A DNA stretch of 64,000 bases from the NCBI GenBank assembly GCA_017893485.1, contig CM030366.1, positions 188,277,947 through 188,341,946 of the forward strand, written 5' to 3'. This document shows, one piece after another, positions 2,797 through 46,777 of this stretch (position 1 is its first letter; every line of letters begins with the position of its first letter). A model generated the notes under the pieces. The model searched no databases, was not told where the DNA came from, and worked only from the letters and a program-made list of their open reading frames with translations. Source of the DNA: Hemerocallis citrina (Eukaryota > Streptophyta > Magnoliopsida > Asparagales > Asphodelaceae). A program made the translations under genes and the position numbers.

Positions 2797-3060
2797 CACT
2801 ACAAAACATGTGCAATTTACCGGCGTATATTCCCCGGCGTTTTACCATTCGCGCCGGGGTAGGGAGTGACCAGGAATGGGGCGTCAGATTGGATGGTTAT
2901 ACACCGGCGGCCTCTATAAAATGCCGGGGAATCATGATATTCACCGGCGTTTTATTTGTAAACACCGGTAAATGGTATTATTCACCGGCATTTTAATAAC
3001 AAACGCCGGAGAATATACATACATTCACCGGCGTTCGTAACTTCAAACGCCAGTGAATTA
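2797..3060 (+). repeat. Left terminus and subterminal repeats of CACTA-1
   Basis: At least ten copies, in both orientations, of a short motif around CACCGGCG/CGCCGGTG or CCCCGGCG, spaced roughly 20-40 bp apart, begin directly after the CACTA tip. In En/Spm elements such repeats bind the TNPA-type protein. Here that role is inferred from position and layout. Confidence 0.8.
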
Positions 3061-3339: not shown

Positions 3340-5003
3340 TCTTGATTTCTCTCATTTTCACTGTCAAAGATGCTGAATTCATGCATCTGATTGGCATCTT
3401 AGCATGATTTTTTTACCAAAATGGGTTCACTGTCAACTAAGTATGCTGTATGTATACCAAAATCCTCCAAATCTGTACAAGAATTGGGCGGAACAAAACT
3501 TGTGCAGGTTTATTTTGGAGCCACAAACATCATGATTTAGTTGGGATGAAGAATTAATAGAGAAACATATATGCTTAGATACTGGAAATTTTCATTTCCT
3601 TTTACTGTTAAAGAAACTGAATTCATGCATCTGATTGTCATCTTAGCATGATTTTTTTACCAAAATGTGTTGACTGTCAAAGATGGATGCTGTATGTATA
3701 CCAAAATCCTCCAAATCTGTACAAGAATTGGGCTGAACAAACCTTGGGCAGGTTTCTTTTGGAGCCACAAACATCAATGGTTTAGTTGGGATGAAGAATT
3801 AATAGAGAAACATATATGCTTAGATACTGGAAATTTTTATTTTCTTTACTGTTAAAGAATCTGAGTTCATGCATCTGATTGCCTTTTTAGCATGTTTTTT
3901 TTACCAAAATGGGTTAACTGTCAACTAAGGATGCTGGCTGTATACCAAAATCCTCCAAATCTGTACAAGAATTGGGCTGAACAAACCTTGTGCAGGTTTC
4001 TTTTGGAGCCACAAACATCATGATTTAGTTGGGATGAAGAATTAATGGAGAAACATATATGCTTAGATACTGGAAATTTTTATTTTCTTTTACTGTTAAA
4101 GAATCTGAGTTCATGCATCTGATTGCCTTCTTAGCATGTTTTTTTTACCAAAATGGGTTAACTGTCAACTAGAGGATGCTGGTTGTATACCAAAATCCTC
4201 CAAATCTATACAAAAATTGGGCTGAACAAACATTGTGCAGGTTTCTTTTGGAGCCACAAACATCATGATTTAGTTGGGATGATGAATTAATGGAGAAACA
4301 TATATGCTTAGATACTGAAAATTTTCATTTTCTTTTACTGTCAAAGAAACTGAATTCATGCATCTGATTGTCATCTTAGCATGATTTTTTTACCAAAATG
4401 TGTTGACTGTCAACTAATTATGCTGTATGTATACCAAAATCCTCCAAATCTGTACAAGAATTGGGCGGAACAAACCTTGTGCAGGTTTCTTTTGGAGGCA
4501 CAAACATCAATGGTTTAGTTGGGATGAAGAATTAATAGAGAAACATATATGCTTATATACTAGAAATTTTCATTTTCTTTTACTGTTAAAGTAGCTGAAT
4601 TCATGCATCTGATTGCCATCTTAGCATGATTTTTTAACCAAAATGGGTTCACTATCAACTAAGGATGCTGTATGTATACCAAAATCCTCCAAATCTGTAC
4701 AAGAATTGGGTGAGAACAAACCTTGTGCAGGTTTCTTTTGTAGCCACAAACATCATGATTTAGTTGGGATGAAGAATTAATAGAGAAACATATATGCTAT
4801 ATACTGGAAATTTTCATTTTCCTTTACTGTCAAAGATGCTGAATTCATGCATCTGATTGTCATCTAAGGATGCTAGCTGTATACCAAAATCCTCCAAATC
4901 TGTACAAGAATTGGGCTGAACAAACCTTGTGCAGGTTTCTTTTGGAGCTACAAACATCAATGATTTAGTTGGGATGAAGAATTAATAGAGCAACATATTA
5001 GTA
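3340..5003 (+). repeat. Tandem array A of the 244-bp CACTA-1 repeat (about 7 units)
   Basis: A unit of about 240-250 bp repeats head to tail. Landmarks in each copy are TTCATGCATCTGATT, ACCAAAATGGGTT, AATCCTCCAAATCTGTAC, CTTGTGCAGGTTTC and TAGTTGGGATGAAG. Copies differ by scattered point changes and small indels. No reading frame runs through a unit; short ORFs in the array are chance frames. The array occupies the place where the Transposase_21 coding region would be expected. Confidence 0.93.
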
Positions 5004-5028
5004 GCCATATTAGTTTCTTTTGTGCAGG

Positions 5029-5030
<2 letters not shown>

Positions 5031-5067
<37 letters not shown>
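5031..5067 (+). repeat. (TTA)n microsatellite
   Basis: About twelve uninterrupted TTA/ATT triplets at the end of array A, directly after a GTGCAGGTT that belongs to a truncated repeat unit. Confidence 0.95.
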
Positions 5068-5544
5068 TTGGGATGAGTAACTGATTATTAGTAGCCATGA
5101 ACAGAATAGTTCATGAGTCATCAAATCTTCTTGTTACCGTATTTACAGCACGACGCCCTCGTTATTCGTCCGATTCCTCTTCCTCAGCAAATACCCTTTA
5201 CCATCATCATCTCCTTGAACGGAAAGCCAAATACAGGGAAGACTATAGTCGAATCGATATTAGACTCGAACACAAGGTGTGCGATAAAATGCCACTAAGG
5301 TGGTTGTGATAATTTCCACAAAGGTAGTTTAGGGTTATGTTAATAGAGTAGATTGTATTAAGATTTAATTGTTTTTTTATACATTTTTGGAACCATGATT
5401 TCTTTATTTTACAATTAATTGTTTTATTTATTTGCAGCTAGGGTTGGTTTTAAAAAAGGTGAAATTAAAAATACAAAATGTCCTTTACTGTCAATACTAT
5501 TTAATATGTCAAATTTTAATTTCAGATTGTGTGCTATTGTTATA

Positions 5545-5881: not shown

Positions 5882-6558
5882 AGGTACATTCTTTGGGTCC
5901 TGAAGGTGTGTTATCTGAAATACAAGTACTTGCCAAGGGTCCCTATAAGATGGCCAAAAGATACAGAGGATACATATTCAATGGCTTTAGATTTCGTACT
6001 AAAGATCGTGAATGTAATTTGAAGTCTCAAAATAGTGGAATGGTAGTGACTTCTAAGACTAGAAGTTATGCTTCCAAGTCGGACACGAGGCCGGTAGATG
6101 GAGATCTCGACTACTATGGAGTGCTCACGAGTATCATTGAGTTGAACTATTTTGGTCATTTTCGTGTTGTCTTATTTCGTGGGGATTGGGCTGAGTTTGA
6201 TAGGAATTTTGCTAATAACAAGGATAAGTTAGGTTTCACAGTTGTAAACTTCTCAAAATTGATTCATATCGGTACACACATTAGCCACGAACCATTTGTG
6301 TTCCCATCCCAAGTGCAACAAGTGTTCTACATTGAAGATCCAACCCTTCCAAAATCGTATGTGGCTCTTGAGATGCAACCAAGAGATTTATTCCAACTGG
6401 GCGATACTTCAGAAGATGAAGACAGTGAAGCCATGAACAGTTACATTGCTTCTGAGTTTCCTATGTTTGATGTAAACACTACCGACGACGGAATTTGCGG
6501 GACTTGGCTCCGCAAGGATGGAGAAGAGGGAGATGTATTGGAAGATGTCGTATTGTAG
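5882..6558 (+). pseudogene. CACTA transposase C-terminal region with DUF4216 domain
   Basis: An open frame of about 225 codons follows an acceptor-like TTAATAG. Early residues VLAKGPYKMAKRYRGYIFNG and SQNSGMVVTSKTRSYASKSD, then YYGVLTSIIELNYFGHFRVV, form the DUF4216 signature of plant CACTA proteins. The C-terminal part (GFTVVNFSKLIH, PFVFPSQVQQVFYI) is also family-typical, and an acidic tail ends at TAG. No stop or shift interrupts this exon, unlike the exon before it. The conventional ATG is not obvious, so I treat it as an internal exon. The domain's biochemical role is unknown. It lacks the catalytic half, hence pseudogene. Confidence 0.85.
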
Positions 6559-11194: not shown

Positions 11195-11560
11195 CATAAA
11201 CCGACGTTTCATAGAACGCCGGTGTATCTAATTATTTAGTTGAAAATTTCGTTAGAGAGGCGTTTCCACACAGGCGGGTGTACCCGTAAGTTGCAGCACT
11301 CCTAAGATACACTGACGTTTTATAAAACGCCGGTGAATATCTATATGGCGGCATTTTATGACACGCCGGTGTTTGTAAGTAGGGAAAGAAGGGCGCTTAG
11401 AAACAAGTATACACCGGCGCTCTATGACCACCGGTAAATATTACACATTCCCCGGCGTTTGTACAATCGCCAGTGAAAAGATATATACCGGCGGTATGTG
11501 ACCGCCGGTGAATGTATATTGGGGAAAAGAACGGCACCCAGAAATCGCCATATACCGGTG
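11195..11560 (+). repeat. Right subterminal repeats of CACTA-1
   Basis: Repeated CGCCGGTG/CACCGGCG motifs in both orientations, matching the left end, for example ATACACCGGCGCTCTATGAC and ACCGCCGGTGAATG. The series stops at ACCGGTG near 11560 without the TTGTAGTG tip, so the extreme end was deleted. Confidence 0.8.
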
Positions 11561-11908: not shown

Positions 11909-12434
11909 GCCTGGGGTGGTGGGCAAGCCGGGAAGTTAGGGATCTGGCCCCAACATGGCTTCTTTTCTTGCGGTCCTAATGATTCTGATGCAATGCTCTG
12001 GAATATTTCCATTTGGTGTGCAGCTTGTTACTTGTGGTCACTCTCATACACTTATATCTATGAGAGATGGAAGGATTTATGGATGGCGTTACAATAGTTA
12101 CGGTCAAGCAGCCAATGAGAAATCTACATATGCATGGTACTCTTCACCTGTTGATTGGTAGGTCTTTCTTAAAGAGCTACAATATCTCTATTTGGGCTTA
12201 AATAAGAAAATTTACATATTTTTTTCCTAAAAAAATTGATAGGTGTGTTGGTGAGGTAAAGAGACTTGCAGCTGGGGGTGGTCATTCAGCTGTGTTAAAT
12301 GATGCGTGATCTTTGAAAGAGTTGCGTGAGTTTAGGCTTGCAGAGAGAGTCACTATGTCTAATTCACTTTTAATTGAGGATGTGGCATCTCGAGCTGGTG
12401 CAGATGTCCTAGCATGTCTCTGTGAAAGATTGAG

Positions 12435-39754: not shown

Positions 39755-40197
39755 TGTTAGAATATAAATACTAAATCCTCAATCTTTATCAACACCTTAG
39801 AGTAATGCTAGATCCACTATCAATTTCACTGCAATTCTCTTTACTACCTTAGGTGGCACACTTCAATAGGTAGGAAAAGATAGAGTAGGTGGGGAAACTC
39901 TCCACCTAAGGTAGTGAAGAGAATGGTAGTGAAATTGGTAGTGGCTAAAGCATTACTCTAGAGTTTTAGTTCATTGATAGAATCTTTACATGGTATCATA
40001 ACAATCCAGATTCGAATACCACTAATTATGCAATATTAGATATAGATTAAATAAAATAAAATAGCGCTGCATACAGTCCAGATCTTGGCCAATAACGATG
40101 GTCAGAACCAGCAAAGGCATGTTAGAATATAATACTAAACTCTCGAATCCTTGTCACAACTTCAGAATTTGGTCTATTATTAATAGGATGTTTCACA
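39755..40197 (+). mobile_element. TRIM-like miniature LTR element, MITE-containing
   Basis: LTR 1 is 39755-39990 (TGTTAGAATATAAATACTAA ... GAATCTTTACA), about 75 bp once the MITE at 39798-39958 is removed. It is followed by TGGTATCATAAC, a primer-site-like sequence. A non-coding middle of about 130 bp ends AGCAAAGGCA. LTR 2 is 40120-40197 (TGTTAGAATATAATACTAAA ... GGATGTTTCACA). A third diverged LTR-like piece begins at 40229. Size and layout fit terminal-repeat retrotransposons in miniature. No target duplication was found. Confidence 0.6.
39800..39958. mobile_element. MITE, GAGTAATGCT family, copy 1
   Basis: A 159-bp element with ends GAGTAATGCT and AGCATTACTC and longer inverted arms (CACTACCTTAGGTGG-type and CCACCTAAGGTAGTG). 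TA lies on both sides, as expected for a Tc1/mariner Stowaway-type MITE. It sits inside the LTR of the TRIM-like element. Two relatives are at 58745 and 59452. Confidence 0.88.
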
Positions 40198-40228: not shown

Positions 40229-40278
40229 TGTGAGGGAATATATATACTAGACTTTCAACCCTTATGATAACTTCGTCA
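40229..40278 (+). repeat. Third LTR-like piece of the TRIM, split by CACTA-2
   Basis: TGTGAGGGAATATATATACT then AGACTTTCAACCCTTATGA resembles the TRIM LTR start. It continues after CACTA-2 at 46444 with TCACTCTTCGTGGAGTTTTG, similar to LTR 1's GAGTTTTAGTTC. It suggests a tandem (LTR-internal-LTR-internal-LTR) form. Confidence 0.4.
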
Positions 40279-40299
40279 CACTACAACCGTCGATGGATT

Positions 40300-40550
40300 C
40301 ACCGGCACTTTTTTATAGATTCACCGGCGATACCCTACCGGCGTGTCGAACAGCGCCGCATCAACCGCCGGCGTTGCGCGTGCCGGGCATTCACGACCAG
40401 GTATCCCCGGCGATTTAGAAACCGCCTGTGAAAGCTGTATAATGGGCGGCGCTTGTAAAAGCGCCGGTAAATATTTGTTTTTATTTTTTTTTTTTAAAAA
40501 CGAATTTTAATCTACCCCGGCGTTTTGAAAAACGCCGGGGTAGGTGTAAC
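40300..40550. repeat. Left subterminal repeats of CACTA-2
   Basis: Multiple copies of CACCGGCG, CGCCGGTA and CCCCGGCG in both orientations after the CACTA tip. Same motif class as in CACTA-1, so one binding protein could act on both. Confidence 0.85.
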
Positions 40551-40555
40551 TTTAA

Positions 40556-40770
40556 ATTTTTTTTAAAAAAATTAAAAAATTAAAAAATTAAAAAATTAAA
40601 AAATTAAAAAATTAAAAAATTAAAAAATTAAAAAATTAAAAAATTAAAAAATTAAAAAATTAAAAAATTAAAAAATTAAAAAATTAAAAAATTAAAAAAT
40701 TAAAAAATTAAAAAATTAAAAAATTAAAAAATTAAAAAATTTAAAAATTAAAAAATTAAAAAAAAATTAA
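40556..40770. repeat. (TTAAAAAA)n minisatellite
   Basis: About 26 near-perfect 8-bp units. A single T variant (AATTTAAAAA) appears near 40740. It adjoins the left subterminal repeats. Confidence 0.95.
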
Positions 40771-41220
40771 TACAATTTTTTAATGGAGGAATATATGCAA
40801 AATCCATAATAAATTACAATAATCCATACAACAAGTAAAAAATCTTATACAAAGAGTATTAACTATAGCAATCGTCAAATTTTCTACTTTCCGGCCCGTA
40901 TTCGTTCTCAATCTGCATCATATTTAACTCAATTAGCAAACTTCTTCTTTTCATTGAATTTGTTGAGAACCAAGGGCTATTAGCTTAAGAAAGAGCAATG
41001 CCTGTGAGAGGATGATGGGACCGCCCTACTACACACCAGAACCTCTTTAGTTTTTTGTCAGTTTAGATATTATTCCTTGCTCCTACTACATACCAGAACC
41101 TCTTTAGTTTTTCACAATAGGAATGATGTTGAGCAGGACCTATATGTTACCAGATATTATTGTTCAAGTGCATAATGAGGTTTGATAAATAGGAAAAGAG
41201 CAGTTTTTTGCTTCACAAAC

Positions 41221-41330
41221 CTGGTCACAGATGGCGCAAGTATGGCTTCTCTCCATCCACTCTAGAATGCATGAGAGGTGAAAATGATGCTCACATTTTG
41301 TGATGATGCGAGGGTTTCCCTTATCATATT
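41221..41330 (-). pseudogene. Captured RING-H2 exon (E3 ligase fragment) in CACTA-2
   Basis: On the minus strand, acceptor TTTTTTGGGCAG is followed by EYDKGNPRIITKCEHHFHLS, then CILEWMERSHTCAICDQ, and the donor CAG|GTTTGTG. This is the second half of a plant RING-H2 domain (Cys-x2-His-x2-His-x2-Cys core, then Cys-x2-Cys), closest by memory to the At3g02290-like E3 ligases. The first zinc-binding Cys pair is on a missing exon, and PV(C) of the family reads AI(C). The exon is 110 bp, exactly bounded by consensus splice sites, so it was copied from genomic DNA. It cannot form a full RING alone. Confidence 0.85.
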
Positions 41331-42909
41331 CTGCCCAAAAAAAGAATTGAAGGAATGAGCTCTTCTTTCTAGATATAAGTAAATAAAAGATAAAAAAGTT
41401 CACCCAACAAAACATTTGAGGTAAATATTTATCAATGCTCTTGTAGGATTCTATATGGTGAAAATGTTAGTGAAGAGTGAAGAGCCTTGACCAAAATAGC
41501 AGCCTGACATTCATTTGGTTAGATTGCATGATACACCTTTATAATTTGCATCAATGTGTATCTGGTACATAATATGATCAGCATGGAGATCCAGGAAGTA
41601 ACAGAATGCATAACAAAACAATAGAACAACATGACCCAGAATGACAAAATCAACAACATCAAAAGGACCACACTATTTAATTAAAAATTAATAATAATTT
41701 GCAAAGAAAGAAAGATATAACAATCTGTGTAATGGAAAATGTGTCAATGTTTTCATGCAGATAACCAAGGACAAGAAAAAGGAAAAAAATTATTTTTGTG
41801 ATGAGAGAAAACTAAACCAAGTTACCATTTATTCGTAAGATGAAACAAAAGTAAATTGATTTAATAGATGGTAGGGTTTAGAGGCACTAAATATCGCTTC
41901 TCATTCAGTGGTTGAAGAAATAAAGGCCACTTAGAGAAACTCAAGTGGCAGAAAGGGTGTTGAAAGCATGATATGCCCGGGGGACGAACAGCCCAGTGTC
42001 ACATTTGCATTGATATAAGAGGTTTACTCGCTTGGTGGATATACAGAAGCATAGATATGAGCTCTGGTTGGCATATTGTAAACTTATTATGTATCCAGAA
42101 TGCATGGGTACAAGTTTGAGATGTTTTGAGATGTATGATGTATCAGATATGAATTTGATACTAAGACATTAGATTAATGATTAAGGCAATTTAATATGAT
42201 AAGTCCAATGCATTTGTATAATTTTCCTTTATTGCACATATCTGATCGATTATATTGGATATCAACATGTGTATCTCATTCAGTGGTTGAAGGAATAATA
42301 ACTGACTAGCAAGGAATAATAGCTAAATATATCCGTCAGAAGACGGTATAGCTAATTAGTCCACATTGTCAATTCCCATTTATTCTACTGCAACAGAGAA
42401 TGGCAAATAATGAACTAGATGATCATATGCTATGCACGAGACGAGATAAAAATTTGTATACTTTTATATGACACATAAAAATTAAACATTAAGCATAAAA
42501 ATTAAACATTAAGCATTCACATAATTACAACTAAAGTGAGACTTGATAGTAGAATTTTCTTTAATAAATTCTCCACAGTAAATAAATTGAAAGAAACTTA
42601 ATTATTTGTGAGTTCTAAGCTAATGTGAATATTAACAAATGAATCCTTCCATTAAGAACAAAATATCTTAATTGTTTAATTGGTTACAAAAGTACTTCCT
42701 AAATTAAGTTTATTAAAAATAGAATGGAAAAGATCGCACAATCTTTTTACTGCACTGAGACGAAAGAACTCGGAGAGATTTCACTATAAAAGTAAAGAGT
42801 GCATAGATGTATTCCACCTCTAATTTCACCACTAATTTATGCCCTTCAACTAGAAATAAAATTGAGATTATCATAATGAAAAGAAAAGAAAAAATTTAAA
42901 GGAAAATAC

Positions 42910-43027
42910 CTGCATATTCAAGGCAACCATCTGAGCTCCATACATCCAACCTAGCAATGGATTGTAATTTGAGCTTGTGACACGTATACCTTTCGGATAA
43001 ATCCTTAGAATGTTCTTCTGAGTGAAC
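42910..43027 (-). pseudogene. Captured PI-PLC (Y-domain) exon in CACTA-2
   Basis: On the minus strand, acceptor GTTTCTAG then [20 protein letters not shown] and [20 protein letters not shown], ending at CAG|GTATTTTCC. This block is characteristic of the Y half of plant phosphoinositide-specific phospholipase C, which cleaves PIP2. Apart from a few substitutions (family: Thr for Ile after KG, His for Tyr before GAQ) it is uninterrupted. It begins in split-codon phase, so if spliced to the TGA exon upstream it would be read in another frame that is open across this exon. Confidence 0.87.
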
Positions 43028-43126
43028 CTAGAAACATAGTTATTGTAACTGGGCATTCAGTTTTAAAACATTTGGTCCACACTCAATTAGTAATTACAAA
43101 GTGAAATGAAACATGTATCATCAAAC

Positions 43127-43180
43127 CTGTAGTAACGTATTCATAGAAGTGCTTGTTGAAGACACTAAACTCAAACCATC
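43127..43180 (-). pseudogene. Captured TGA-type bZIP exon 3 in CACTA-2
   Basis: Acceptor CTTTTAG, then DGLSLVSSTSTSMNTLLQ, then donor CAG|GTTTGATG. It continues the phase of the 43291-43349 exon. SLVSS is the family-typical piece. The remaining residues diverge from the SGSKRPSE expected in TGA proteins, so assignment rests on position. Confidence 0.6.
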
Positions 43181-43290
43181 CTAAAAGAAAATTAAGGGGA
43201 AAACAAAGAACTGAAGCAAGCTAAGGAAGTCTTGAATTCTAACATAATTAAAGGCATATATTGTTATTTATTGGTCATTTAGGTACAAAC

Positions 43291-43349
43291 CTTGGTTGAT
43301 GGGTCTTCATGCACATGCATGGGCTGAGAAGGGAAAATGTTCAAAGTCT
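43291..43349 (-). pseudogene. Captured TGA-type bZIP exon 2 in CACTA-2
   Basis: Acceptor TGTTTGCAG, coding TLNIFPSQPMHVHEDPSTK, donor AAG|GTTTGTAC. TLNIFPSQPMHVE is a conserved N-terminal stretch of a subgroup of TGA bZIP transcription factors (TGA9/TGA10-like). The codon split with the exon at 43718-43821 is compatible, so the two would join in frame. Confidence 0.77.
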
Positions 43350-43717
43350 CTGCAAACATGAATCAATTCCTGCAAACCATTAAACCTTCTGAAACTACAA
43401 CTCTCAAAAATGCAAAATATGAGTAATTTAAATTTGACAAATCTAATAAAAATGTGTATAAGTTTGAAGAAAGAAACAAAAACACTGTGGAAAATAATCA
43501 AATAGAAACTTCATTAATCATTTCTGACTGTCAACAAAATATTAGAATATAGTAACTCAAATTCTAACAACTCAAGCCAAGAAAATTAAAGATATATAGC
43601 TATTCTAAGCTTCTAATTTTGTATGATGAAATAGATAATTTATCGATATAAAAATATGGAAATATACAAAGTTTGTAAATAGCAAGATGAATTAGTAATT
43701 AAAAGATCGATACTTAC

Positions 43718-43821
43718 TTTTGTGTTCTTGAATATCTCCAGCTGAATGATCATGTCCATCAAGAAACAAGAAAAGAGCTTGATCCAACTCAGCCATGTCA
43801 TAAGCCCCTCCCTCTCTAATC
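43718..43821 (-). pseudogene. Captured TGA-type bZIP exon 1 in CACTA-2
   Basis: Acceptor ATATACGGCAG, coding IREGGAYDMAELDQALFLFL then DGHDHSAGDIQEHK, donor A|GTAAGTATC. AYDxxELDQALFLYLDGQD is the conserved segment ahead of NIFPSQPMH in TGA9/10-like factors. The bZIP domain and DOG1 domain are not present in the element, so only the N-terminal, non-DNA-binding part was captured. Confidence 0.77.
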
Positions 43822-43829
43822 CTGCCGTA

Positions 43830-45860
43830 TATAATACCTCAAAAGATTAAAGAATTAGTCCAGACTTCAAATTGTAAACCTAATCAAGCTCACCTAATAT
43901 TTATCAAAGAAATATAACTCTACATGATTTTGGCTTTCCTTTTGTATGTGATAATATTTTGACTATAATATTTTTCTTATGTCAGGGAGGGCAAACCACA
44001 TTAAATAATTGCCAAGTTTTGCAGGTAATTATGCTATCCTTTGATTCTTTCTTATGAAGAAAGTCTTTTCCTTGTAAACTTGTGACGAGGAGATCATTAG
44101 GATTATTCACATTGAGAAGTTTCAGAATGTAGATACAGTGGAGCCACTATAGCCTGATACCCTGGACATATAGCTTACATTTCATCACCAAACAATCAGC
44201 ATCCTTAAATTTTATTGGTCTACATATAGAAGTTGAAAATTTTGAATTCTTTATCTAATTCTTAGCTGTTTAGTTAATAATTAGTTAGCACATAAGGGGA
44301 TATATTCTAAAAGCATGGTTGAGTGCAGTTTAAATTTAATTAGGTGGTATGGATGGTTGATTTATTTCGAACTTAAAAATATGTGGTTGGGATTAGTTAA
44401 ATTTGCACAACTCCAACTCTATTGTTAAACTAGTAGAGATGCTTGTCAATCACATTTGTTCTTGTTCTAGCTATTGATTTCAACTTGTGTGTATTGTGTT
44501 TGACTGTTTGGTAAAAATGGAATAGAGATGATGGAAAGAAATGATCTTTTAAGCTGGTAAGGTGATTCAATGCTATTTATGAAATTTTTTATCTTAAAAT
44601 AGATATCATAGCTAAAGTCACAAGTTAAAGAAGATGCTGAGAAAGAACTTTGAATGCTATAATTTAGAAAATTCAAAAATTATGTCTATGGTGATCTTGA
44701 CCTAATGAATTAATGAGAGATGTTACTTGAAGAATTTCTACTATGATCATGACCTTTTGCATGGTAAAATGTTTAAGTGCATCATTTTTCTTACTCCCGC
44801 GACCATATGACAAAAGGAGAACTAATACAACCAAACAATTTACCAAACCATGAGATGATCAATAAGATAACACTTCCAAGCTAATTACCAAGTTGGAGCA
44901 AAAGAAGGGTCTTGCATCACAGCTTAGGTAGAACTCTTAGAAATTAAACATTAACTATAATTTAGAACACTGGATAAATTATAGAGGATGGAAAAAAAAA
45001 AAAGTTCTGTTTATTGTAAATTCAAAGAACTAACATATAGTAACATATATGAAAATTCTAAGACTGACATGCAGGACCGTTTTAATTATATATCATAGGT
45101 ACATCATTGTCACGTATATCATGTACAGTTTGCTTTTTTCAGCATACAGCCATACTAACTTCCAACATATGAAGCCCTACTTGTCATATAAGAAAATTAC
45201 ATTGCTATTCCTACATAGCTTTCTTCCTCTATATTTTTTTTTCCCTTTTCAAAGAAAGTGTGCACCTTCCTTGAACATTCTCAAAGCACTTTAATTTTAT
45301 TCCACAGTTTGTGAAGTGGCATCAACTAATTCCTTTACATCATATTCAGGCTAGAAATAAAGCAGAAATTCAATTTTATTTTATATTAGTATAAACATAT
45401 CTATTTGATTCTATAAATAGTGGAACTTATGCCTCAAGCAGGTCAAAGAGTACAGTTTGACACATCTGTTCTACTTACATTTCATTTTGATATAACTTGT
45501 CTTCTGTTACTGGATTGTAAGGTGAAATGGAGCTCCTCATCTTCTTCATCATCTTATTACAAATATTGTATAATGAGAAGATGGAGAATAACATAGCAAA
45601 GAGTCATACAAATAGAAATATAAAGGTTACATGTAAACCATGTGCATCCTTCTAATGCTAATTGTTTATTTATTTATTTGTTTGTTTATTTATTTGTTTG
45701 TGCATCCTTCTAATACAACAAACCCTAATTAGTCCACATTATCAAATCCCAACACATTCTCAAATCCCAAAATACTCCTAAATCACAGATTATTCAGCAC
45801 AAAATCCCAAACAATTTCATTATAAAATAAAAAAAATTATTAAAAGTTGAAAATAATCAT
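43830..45860 (-). other. CACTA-2 interior, probably intronic
   Basis: Between the leader exon and the first captured exon. AT-rich, with poly-T and (TTTATTTG)n near 45665-45710. No coding block I recognise on either strand, though short diverged exons could be missed. Some of it is likely flanking intron DNA captured with the exons. Confidence 0.5.
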
Positions 45861-45861
45861 A

Positions 45862-46200
45862 CCGGAGATGAGCGAGGGTTTGAGAGCTAGAGAGAGGGGG
45901 AGAACGATGGCGTGAAAGGGGGATTAGGATGTCGGAGATACGATGACGGGGAGCACGGTAGAGGAGACGAGTAGGGGGCGCATGGCGGAGGAGACGAGCG
46001 CTAGGGGATTTGGGTTGCGGTGCGGTGATTTGGAGACGAGGGGATTCGGGTTGCAAAATTTGGAGACGGCGCGGGGATTTGGAGACGAGTGGAATTTGTG
46101 ATCGAGGAGATGTGGAGAAGAGGGGATTTGGGGCGCTAGGGTTTTGGGGATTTTGCGCGCTAGGGTTTGGGGATTTCGCGCTCGTAAAAGGAGAGAAAGA
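45862..46200 (-). other. GC-rich leader exon of the CACTA-2 chimeric transcript
   Basis: On the minus strand a Pro/Arg-rich open frame (MQPESPRLQITAPQPKSPSA ... TLAHLR) ends at donor CTCCG|GTATGATT. GC content is far above the surrounding DNA, with repeated GGGGATTTGG-type phrases on the plus strand. By position it matches the CT-rich leader of CACTA-1. Whether the frame is translated is unknown. Confidence 0.45.
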
Positions 46201-46261
46201 GGCGAAAGATTAAATTAAAGGGAAAATAAAACGCTGGCTCAGCGTAATTAACAGATGTAAT

Positions 46262-46420
46262 TAGAAAGAATCCCCGGCACCTCCTATACAACGCCGGGGA
46301 ATATACGTAAACCCCGGCATTTTATAGCAAACGCCGGGGAATTAAGGGGTTTTTTTAATCCCAGATTGCAACTTCGTTCGTCCCCGGCGTTTATTGAAAG
46401 CGCCGGGGTAAAAATGCCAT
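46262..46420. repeat. Right subterminal repeats of CACTA-2
   Basis: CCCCGGCG and CGCCGGGG motifs at about 46272, 46294, 46312, 46334, 46382 and 46400, leading to the GTTGTAGTG end. Confidence 0.85.
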
Positions 46421-46777
46421 TGTAGGTTAATTTAGTTGTAGTGTCACTCTTCGTGGAGTTTTGATACATATACAGTTAAATAATTTCATGGTTAAGGGGC
46501 CGGATGGATTGATTTGAAGAGACCAGGACTTAATTGGATTTCTAGGGTTGGCATTCGGGTCAAACGGACCGGGCCGGACCGGACCCGCCCGGGTTGGATG
46601 TTGACTTAGGCGGGTTCGGGCCCGGTTGGTGGCTTAATCGGGCCGGACCAGGCCGAGTCGAAAAGTGGAAATGGCGACCCGCCCAACCCGTGAACCCTTT
46701 CAGGTCCAACCCGGGTCGGGGCGGGTCGGTTCGCGGGTTGGCCTATTTAGATAGGTTTTTTTTTAAAAAAAACTTAA

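Follow-up and report, generated by a model that had tools for sequence, protein, structure and literature searches.

We analysed a stretch of 64,000 nucleotides from Hemerocallis citrina (the window; C9:188277947-188341946 of a 3.78-Gb assembly in 701 contigs). It contains a 6165-bp element with CACTA ends (40279..46443, 33% G+C), the captured exons of which are read on the minus strand. We are confident that this element is a non-autonomous Pack-CACTA of a modular family, built by successive captures of host gene pieces and by the joining of CACTA elements. That CACTA elements capture gene pieces is already known; this one illustrates the process very clearly.

The element is complete, as the original prediction, made from the letters of this DNA, had stated. 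Its inverted ends, CACTACAAC at 40279 and GTTGTAGTG at 46443, are CACTA (En/Spm) termini (CACTACAACC / CACTACAACTAA), and the target site duplication (TSD) TCA lies at 40276..40278 on the left and 46444..46446 on the right. CCGGCG-type subterminal units occupy both terminal regions, the left one (40279..40603, with many matches elsewhere in the genome) on the 3' side of the captured exons and the right one (46241..46443) on their 5' side. Eight CCGGCG/CGCCGG units were counted in the left 322 bp and four in the right 294 bp. Nineteen further units lie in the window outside the element ends, 15 of them inside another CACTA-like stretch. No transposase was found among the Pfam matches to the 29 window open reading frames (ORFs); Pfam ORF scans used E <= 0.001 and ORFs of at least 48 aa throughout.

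Captured gene pieces and their donors

The original prediction had host exons from unrelated genes all pointing the same way, and Pfam matches and donor identities agree with this, all on the minus strand. The three genes named at that time (TGA, PLC and RING) are present; a fourth, a GH35 beta-galactosidase (BGAL), had been missed. Donor loci with matching introns, the check then proposed, were found for TGA on C4, for PLC on C2 and for RING on C11.

The TGA10-like bZIP segment (43141..43972, minus strand) carries introns, exons 43821-43718 and 43349-43291, and the first 40 nt of exon 43180-43127. Its donor is C4:100626400-100628600 (L051), 97.7% identical over 43141-43485 and 95.5% over 43490-43972, introns included. 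There, exon 3 runs on past the capture break and is followed by the bZIP basic region (bZIP_1, 8.8e-6, just under the cut-off). The TGA part of the window itself gave no Pfam match; its identity comes from the donor stretch, in which the same exons match TGA10-like bZIPs (307 among 392 candidates). The 12 best relatives of the donor, among 120 matches listed, are from monocots. C5:102620670-102621426 (L047, 84%) was initially taken as the donor and was displaced by the C4 locus (95-98%); it is the C5 paralog.

The PI-PLC segment (42688..43123, minus strand) consists of one Y-domain exon (43027-42910; PI-PLC-Y, 5.1e-15) and parts of both flanking introns. Its donor, C2:229506400-229510400 (L048), is 98.9% identical over 437 columns, and the amino acids of the exon are the same in both. 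In L048 the captured exon is flanked on both sides by other parts of the gene, with matches to the X domain (1.2e-20) and to more of the Y domain (0.001).

The RHB1A-like RING segment (41056..42269, minus strand) includes a RING-H2 exon at 41330-41221 (zf-RING_2, 1.1e-8), and groups with RHB1A-like E3 proteins (180 matches at E <= 0.001 among 187 candidates). The source region, C11:14676072-14686179, is 81-89% alike, introns included. Its part L024 reaches 83.6% over 41172-41783 and 88.6% over 41056-41166, and C11:14676072 matches sequence further upstream of RING at 81%. No closer donor than C11 was found among the matches listed (best 40 of 801 candidates scored). The protein match of L024 stops where CAG|GTTTGT follows, and the window has the native donor site at 41221|41220. 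From this sequence, the RING exon looks internal in the C11 gene. A possible next exon of the gene lies 1.8 kb further on in L024 (11 residues, a weak match at E 0.56); no exons upstream of the RING exon were found in L024.

The GH35 remnant lies downstream of RING, also on the minus strand. An exon end, GGPIILSQ (41025-41002), is followed by a GC donor, and an exon start, IENEYGPESRKFDDC and then a stop (40912-40859), provides an alternative 3' end for the chimeric frame. We take GGPIILSQ and IENEYGPESRKFDDC to be plant GH35 beta-galactosidase motifs. The assignment is supported by sister elements (PDB 9.4e-8, Pfam 0.00022): longer GH35 pieces occur in L011, L013, L014, L015, L023 and L026, the IENEYGPESRKFDDC motif is also found in L009, L018, L019, L020 and L022, and the window stretch is 94% like the L014 piece.

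The TGA and PLC pieces are joined through a 17-nt filler (43124..43140). The TGA sequence ends at 43141, inside its exon 3, and the filler, read from 43140 to 43124 on the minus strand, then supplies a 5' splice site, CAG|GTTTGA at 43127|43126. Correctly predicted as a GT donor, the splice site at the end of the third TGA exon is thus native to neither the TGA nor the PLC parent. The filler has no match of 10 or more bases in L047, L048, L051 or L024. Apart from single-base changes, the same filler was recovered, by a pattern with exact flanks, in the window, L009-L011, L013-L017, L021, L025, L032 and L038. The TGA/PLC join is therefore one event. All the exon borders that had been predicted are present as GT-AG sites, including the leader donor at 45863|45862 and the RING acceptor before 41330.

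The GC-rich leader (45863..46240, minus strand, 55% G+C; its upstream limit is arbitrary) ends at the 5' splice site CCG|GTATGA at 45862. The donor of the predicted leader exon therefore stands; the leader itself is part of the element's own multicopy right end, and no host exon was identified in 45863..46240. It presumably corresponds to the untranslated first exon of En/Spm, which it resembles. The result of a bacterial promoter scan was not used. The right-half body (43999..45862, minus strand), multicopy in the genome, is the first long intron of the spliced model. The right half as a whole (43960-46443) is widespread, with at least 74 pieces (best 40 of 541 candidates scored), and many of these sites differ from the places among the matches listed in another genome search. 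A stretch of unknown origin (42385..42687) borders the PLC piece here, in L038 and in an element on C1 described below.

Other features were seen near the element. A run of 8-bp units (AAAAAATT) lies at 40566-40776, just inside the left end, and is partly missing from L009 and L010. An inverted repeat with 57-nt arms, 88% complementary, adjoins the element at 39800-39958 and is perhaps a small MITE. The second CACTA-like stretch extends from 2797, where CACTACAAAA is found, to about 12700; its right end was not found. It has CCGGCG-type units at 2820-3028 and 11217-11503, an ORF with DUF4216, a domain occurring beside CACTA transposases, at 5884-6555 (Pfam 2.9e-16), and an RCC1-repeat piece at 11940-12158 (7.9e-7).

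Sister elements and the probable order of assembly

The exact 26-base pattern of the left end occurs 52 times genome-wide, and a reversed control pattern 0 times. Eighteen loci were fetched, hand-picked and not random, from 101 listed genome matches. Both ends were located in 14 loci in all (the window, L009, L010, L013-L020, L022, L026 and L038), and 13 of these 14 have identical 3-bp flanks, which makes 12 distinct sites. The sole exception, L013, has flanking sequence in common with L014, and the left flank is common to L019 and L020. TGA, PLC and RING exons are all carried at seven of the 12 distinct TSD sites (the window, L009, L010, L014-L017). The sister copies L009 (C1) and L010 (C3) have the same architecture with other TSDs, and are 95.9% and 95.1% identical to the window element over about 5.7 kb; among the loci fetched, only these two align with 44000-45620 at 90% or more of its length. 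Insertions with their own TSDs show the past mobility of the element family.

L013 (C267) and L014 (C4:137.52M) share the same insertion flanks, and divergence between their copies is 0.6% in one segment and 2.9% in a second; the pair represents haplotypes or a segmental duplication. The copy consensus excluded L012, L024 and L047, the RING-bearing L012 because neither of its ends was found.

Elements with fewer pieces were also recovered. L038 (C9:18938147-18941736) is a 3590-bp CACTA with TSD GCC that carries TGA and PLC and no RING, and its ends are 66-73% like the others. A locus on C1 has a CACTA right end as in L038 and 1.4 kb of PLC, 97.1% identical to the C2 gene, without TGA; its PLC border at 42688 is the same as in the window. 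L018-L020 are CACTAs with RING and BGAL, without PLC or TGA. Elements with all pieces show two kinds of right (leader) end, the window type and that of L016 and L017. One locus, L043, initially seemed to carry no more than a small PLC piece, and PLC exons upstream revealed a larger one.

The presence and absence of pieces in these elements suggests a simplest order of events. PLC would have been captured by a CACTA of another subfamily; the TGA10-like segment would then have been fused to a trimmed PLC piece through the 17 filler bases, as in L038; the TGA-PLC cassette would next have been joined to a RING/BGAL element; and the right end would finally have been exchanged. Joining may have occurred when related elements inserted near each other and were excised aberrantly, as proposed for Arabidopsis Pack-CACTA. 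The transposase would be supplied in trans by the many CACTA transposase genes of the genome; Transposase_21 gave 4929 first-look candidates, of which 150 were scored, and all 150 were over the cut-off.

Further host pieces were observed in some sister elements. L019 has, at 4583-4900 (minus strand) near its GC-rich end, a piece matching histone H4 residues 30-103, and the same histone H4 DNA is carried by L018 and L022 at 96-97%. A pyruvate kinase piece (4.5e-47) lies in L026 at 4722-5228 and a PhyH dioxygenase piece (4.1e-7) in L016 at 5237-5386, both on the minus strand in the same sense as the captured genes; the latter was placed at L016 by eye from its translation. An ENT transporter piece at L019:2387-2641, suspected by eye, had no Pfam match and was not counted.

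The chimeric reading frame and rival explanations

If transcription began in the GC-rich right end, the RNA would run in sense through the captured exons and could be spliced; such a chimeric transcript had been predicted as possible, and all its splice sites are intact in this copy. Joined in this way, the exons form an open frame of 158 aa, starting at an ATG of the first TGA exon, with TGA and RING in their native frames and PLC shifted to a non-native one. Should the RING exon be internal, the final 18 residues of this frame would be read-through intron; RING spliced to the second GH35 exon also stays in frame (...CDQ-IENEYGPESRKFDDCYS-stop). Since PLC is open in two of three frames and RING is native in one of three, an open chimeric frame is not rare by chance. 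The RING exon matches its profile from position 10 of 44, so that the first zinc-ligand Cys pair is absent. Two other ATGs precede the frame, one of them opening 19 codons in the leader. In a protein search with the chimera, all 120 matches listed carry RING domains, and the two longest cover 73-75% of the query at 33-37% identity.

The frame through RING is kept in seven of the ten loci with all five exons (the window and nine others). It was lost through a 4-nt deletion in RING in L010, a stop in L013, and a stop with a lost acceptor in L025. Four of the ten (the window, L009, L011 and L014) keep both the frame and the AG/GT sites, a count covering the TGA, PLC and RING borders. One acceptor is lost in L015, and the first acceptor in L016 and L017. 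Both L013 and L014, and both L019 and L020, were kept in the frame and substitution counts. Compared with base-specific intron rates, the replacement/silent ratio is 0.72 for TGA, 0.70 for RING and, for PLC, 0.60 in the chimeric frame and 2.18 in the native frame. Over all exons it is 0.66, which is not significantly lower than neutral (p = 0.11). For the RING exon, changes are not in deficit (21 vs 24.0 expected).

Several observations weigh against the modular Pack-CACTA reading. None of the Transposase_21 genes was linked to the ends of these elements. For the GH35 donor, C5:169062255 at 74% is one candidate. The right end of L038 was picked, for its fit, from three matches that each have 3 mismatches, and the left end of the C1 locus with the L038-type right end was not found within the 6.6 kb examined. 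The order of steps is inferred from presence and absence in sister elements, and TGA may have been lost from that C1 locus instead of being gained later. L016 and L017 have RING, PLC and TGA without the BGAL motifs, and their right end differs from that of the window; the BGAL piece must therefore have been lost or gained separately. Finally, in a context-corrected test against the introns of the same segment, the TGA exons show 17 changes where 35.0 are expected (P = 0.0006) and the PLC exon 15 where 25.7 are expected (P = 0.017), a deficit not expected under plain neutrality unless AT-rich introns are more prone to mutation or misalignment.

This deficit is a point in favor of a different reading, in which the chimeric frame belongs to a young, functional gene whose 158-aa (or BGAL-ended) protein is produced and maintained by selection, the element being an exon-shuffling vehicle that has already yielded a product. 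The frame that remains open in seven of ten loci, with TGA and RING native, also speaks for it. For the TGA and PLC exons the deficit seemed stronger against all introns (Fisher p = 0.0005) than against same-segment introns only (p = 0.025), the baseline on which the context-corrected test gave the values above. Changes at A/T sites are rare in the three exon sets (4/1583, 3/1050 and 1/822) and commoner in introns (54/7958 and 110/12284); low-complexity A/T tracts may therefore cause the deficit. Moreover, silent and replacement changes are both low in the TGA and PLC exons, and selection is therefore not claimed. The ratio over all exons, the unaffected RING exon, the loss of the frame or of splice borders in six of ten loci, PLC out of frame, RING without its first Cys pair, the ATGs ahead of the frame, a protein search that returned RING-bearing proteins with only distant long matches, and the ease with which such a frame arises by chance all argue against a young gene, which we regard as improbable. 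The new shuffled protein raised in the original prediction is accordingly weakly supported.

A role of the element mainly as a source of small RNAs, silencing itself and, in trans, the C4 TGA, C2 PLC and C11 RING genes, is a tentative proposal; small RNAs against the parents had been named in the original prediction. It is favored by the many copies and by donor identities of 98.9% (PLC) and 95-98% (TGA) over hundreds of bases. Changes in the intron parts are also in excess at CG (6-7%) and CHG (3-6%) sites over CHH sites (1.6-2.1%), which fits the expectation for long-methylated DNA. On the other hand, of 79 inverted pairs listed, the 25 longest include none between two captured exons, and every captured piece reads in sense from the putative promoter, so that antisense RNA would need another source. 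As for the exons being relics of separate genes, with CACTA ends around them by chance, nothing was found in favor of it, and this is ruled out, to near certainty, because L009 and L010 match the element over about 5.7 kb: the same assemblage stands on C1 and C3 at 95-96% with other TSDs, and donors with introns exist on C4, C2 and C11. The exons thus lie within one transposon, as had been predicted. For the Pack-CACTA built by capture and joining, the product would mostly be a non-functional or silenced chimeric RNA and not a selected protein.

Polarity, possible directional capture and known systems

In each of the 12 complete elements examined, G+C is high (53-62%) in a 250-bp window situated 285-435 bp from the right end, and the maximum at the left end is 36-42%. 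The test covered 150-900 bp from each end and excluded two probable duplicates, L013 and L020; the 12 elements have only a few kinds of right end among them and do not count as independent. ORFs were scanned in parts of the window, L014, L016-L019, L026 and L038; the scan omitted L012, L021, L023, L025 and any stretch covered before, and L019:2387-2641 was added by hand to the minus-strand set. None of the 54 plus-strand ORFs of these eight elements had a Pfam match. The 80 minus-strand ORFs gave six host families: GH35, pyruvate kinase, PI-PLC-Y, RING, PhyH and histone-fold (histone H4). With TGA, placed by its donor, seven of seven identified captured genes are in sense with the GC-rich end, for which random orientation gives 2 x (1/2)^7 = 0.016. 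As the elements sampled were chosen because they resemble a single one, this bias is a lead only. Tentatively, capture may be directional: elements of fixed polarity, with the GC-rich leader and its 5' splice site at one end, would keep only pieces reading away from that end, and would act as mobile exon traps with their own promoter, accumulating a row of spliceable exons from many genes (TGA, PLC, RING and BGAL here; in sisters PhyH, histone H4 and pyruvate kinase) and handing on fused cassettes from one subfamily to another. We found no report of an orientation bias in CACTA capture in a search that covered little of the subscription literature.

The element was compared with known systems. 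Tgm-Express1 of soybean, a non-autonomous CACTA of 5.7 kb, carries five unrelated host gene fragments with introns, reported as exons of one transcript that runs from the host gene F3H; they are spliced as cassette exons, as shown by cDNA, and chimeric frames of 105-418 aa are predicted (PMC1947982). The introns of its CDC2 and FPK fragments are spliced out (PMC1947982), and at least these two must therefore be in sense. Our element is likewise a non-autonomous CACTA with several host gene pieces including introns. Unlike Tgm-Express1, it is known from DNA alone, and its donors, intermediates and fusion join are visible in sisters. Pack-CACTA or Pack-TYPE elements have CACTA ends, a 3-bp TSD, no transposase and pieces from several loci, and grow by joining neighbouring related elements (PMC8903248, PMC13317346; Catoni et al. 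2019 through these). All these traits are matched here, with joining as the probable route of growth; a difference is that the partners come from clearly different CACTA subfamilies (the 66-73% alike ends of L038), and the carried cassette is itself a two-gene fusion. In the Tpn1 family of Ipomoea nil, the interior is replaced by captured genic regions, some of them transcribed in chimeras, while termini are kept and TSDs are of 3 bp (PMC5105172). The captured genic interior, kept termini and 3-bp TSDs are the same here; the genome is another one, and captured pieces are common to several subfamilies.

Altogether, the record of this element is unusually complete, with donors that include introns, steps preserved in sister elements and an exact join at which filler bases gave rise to a splice site. 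Two questions thereby become countable: whether capture by CACTA elements is directional, and whether the chimeric frames of Pack elements are ever selected.

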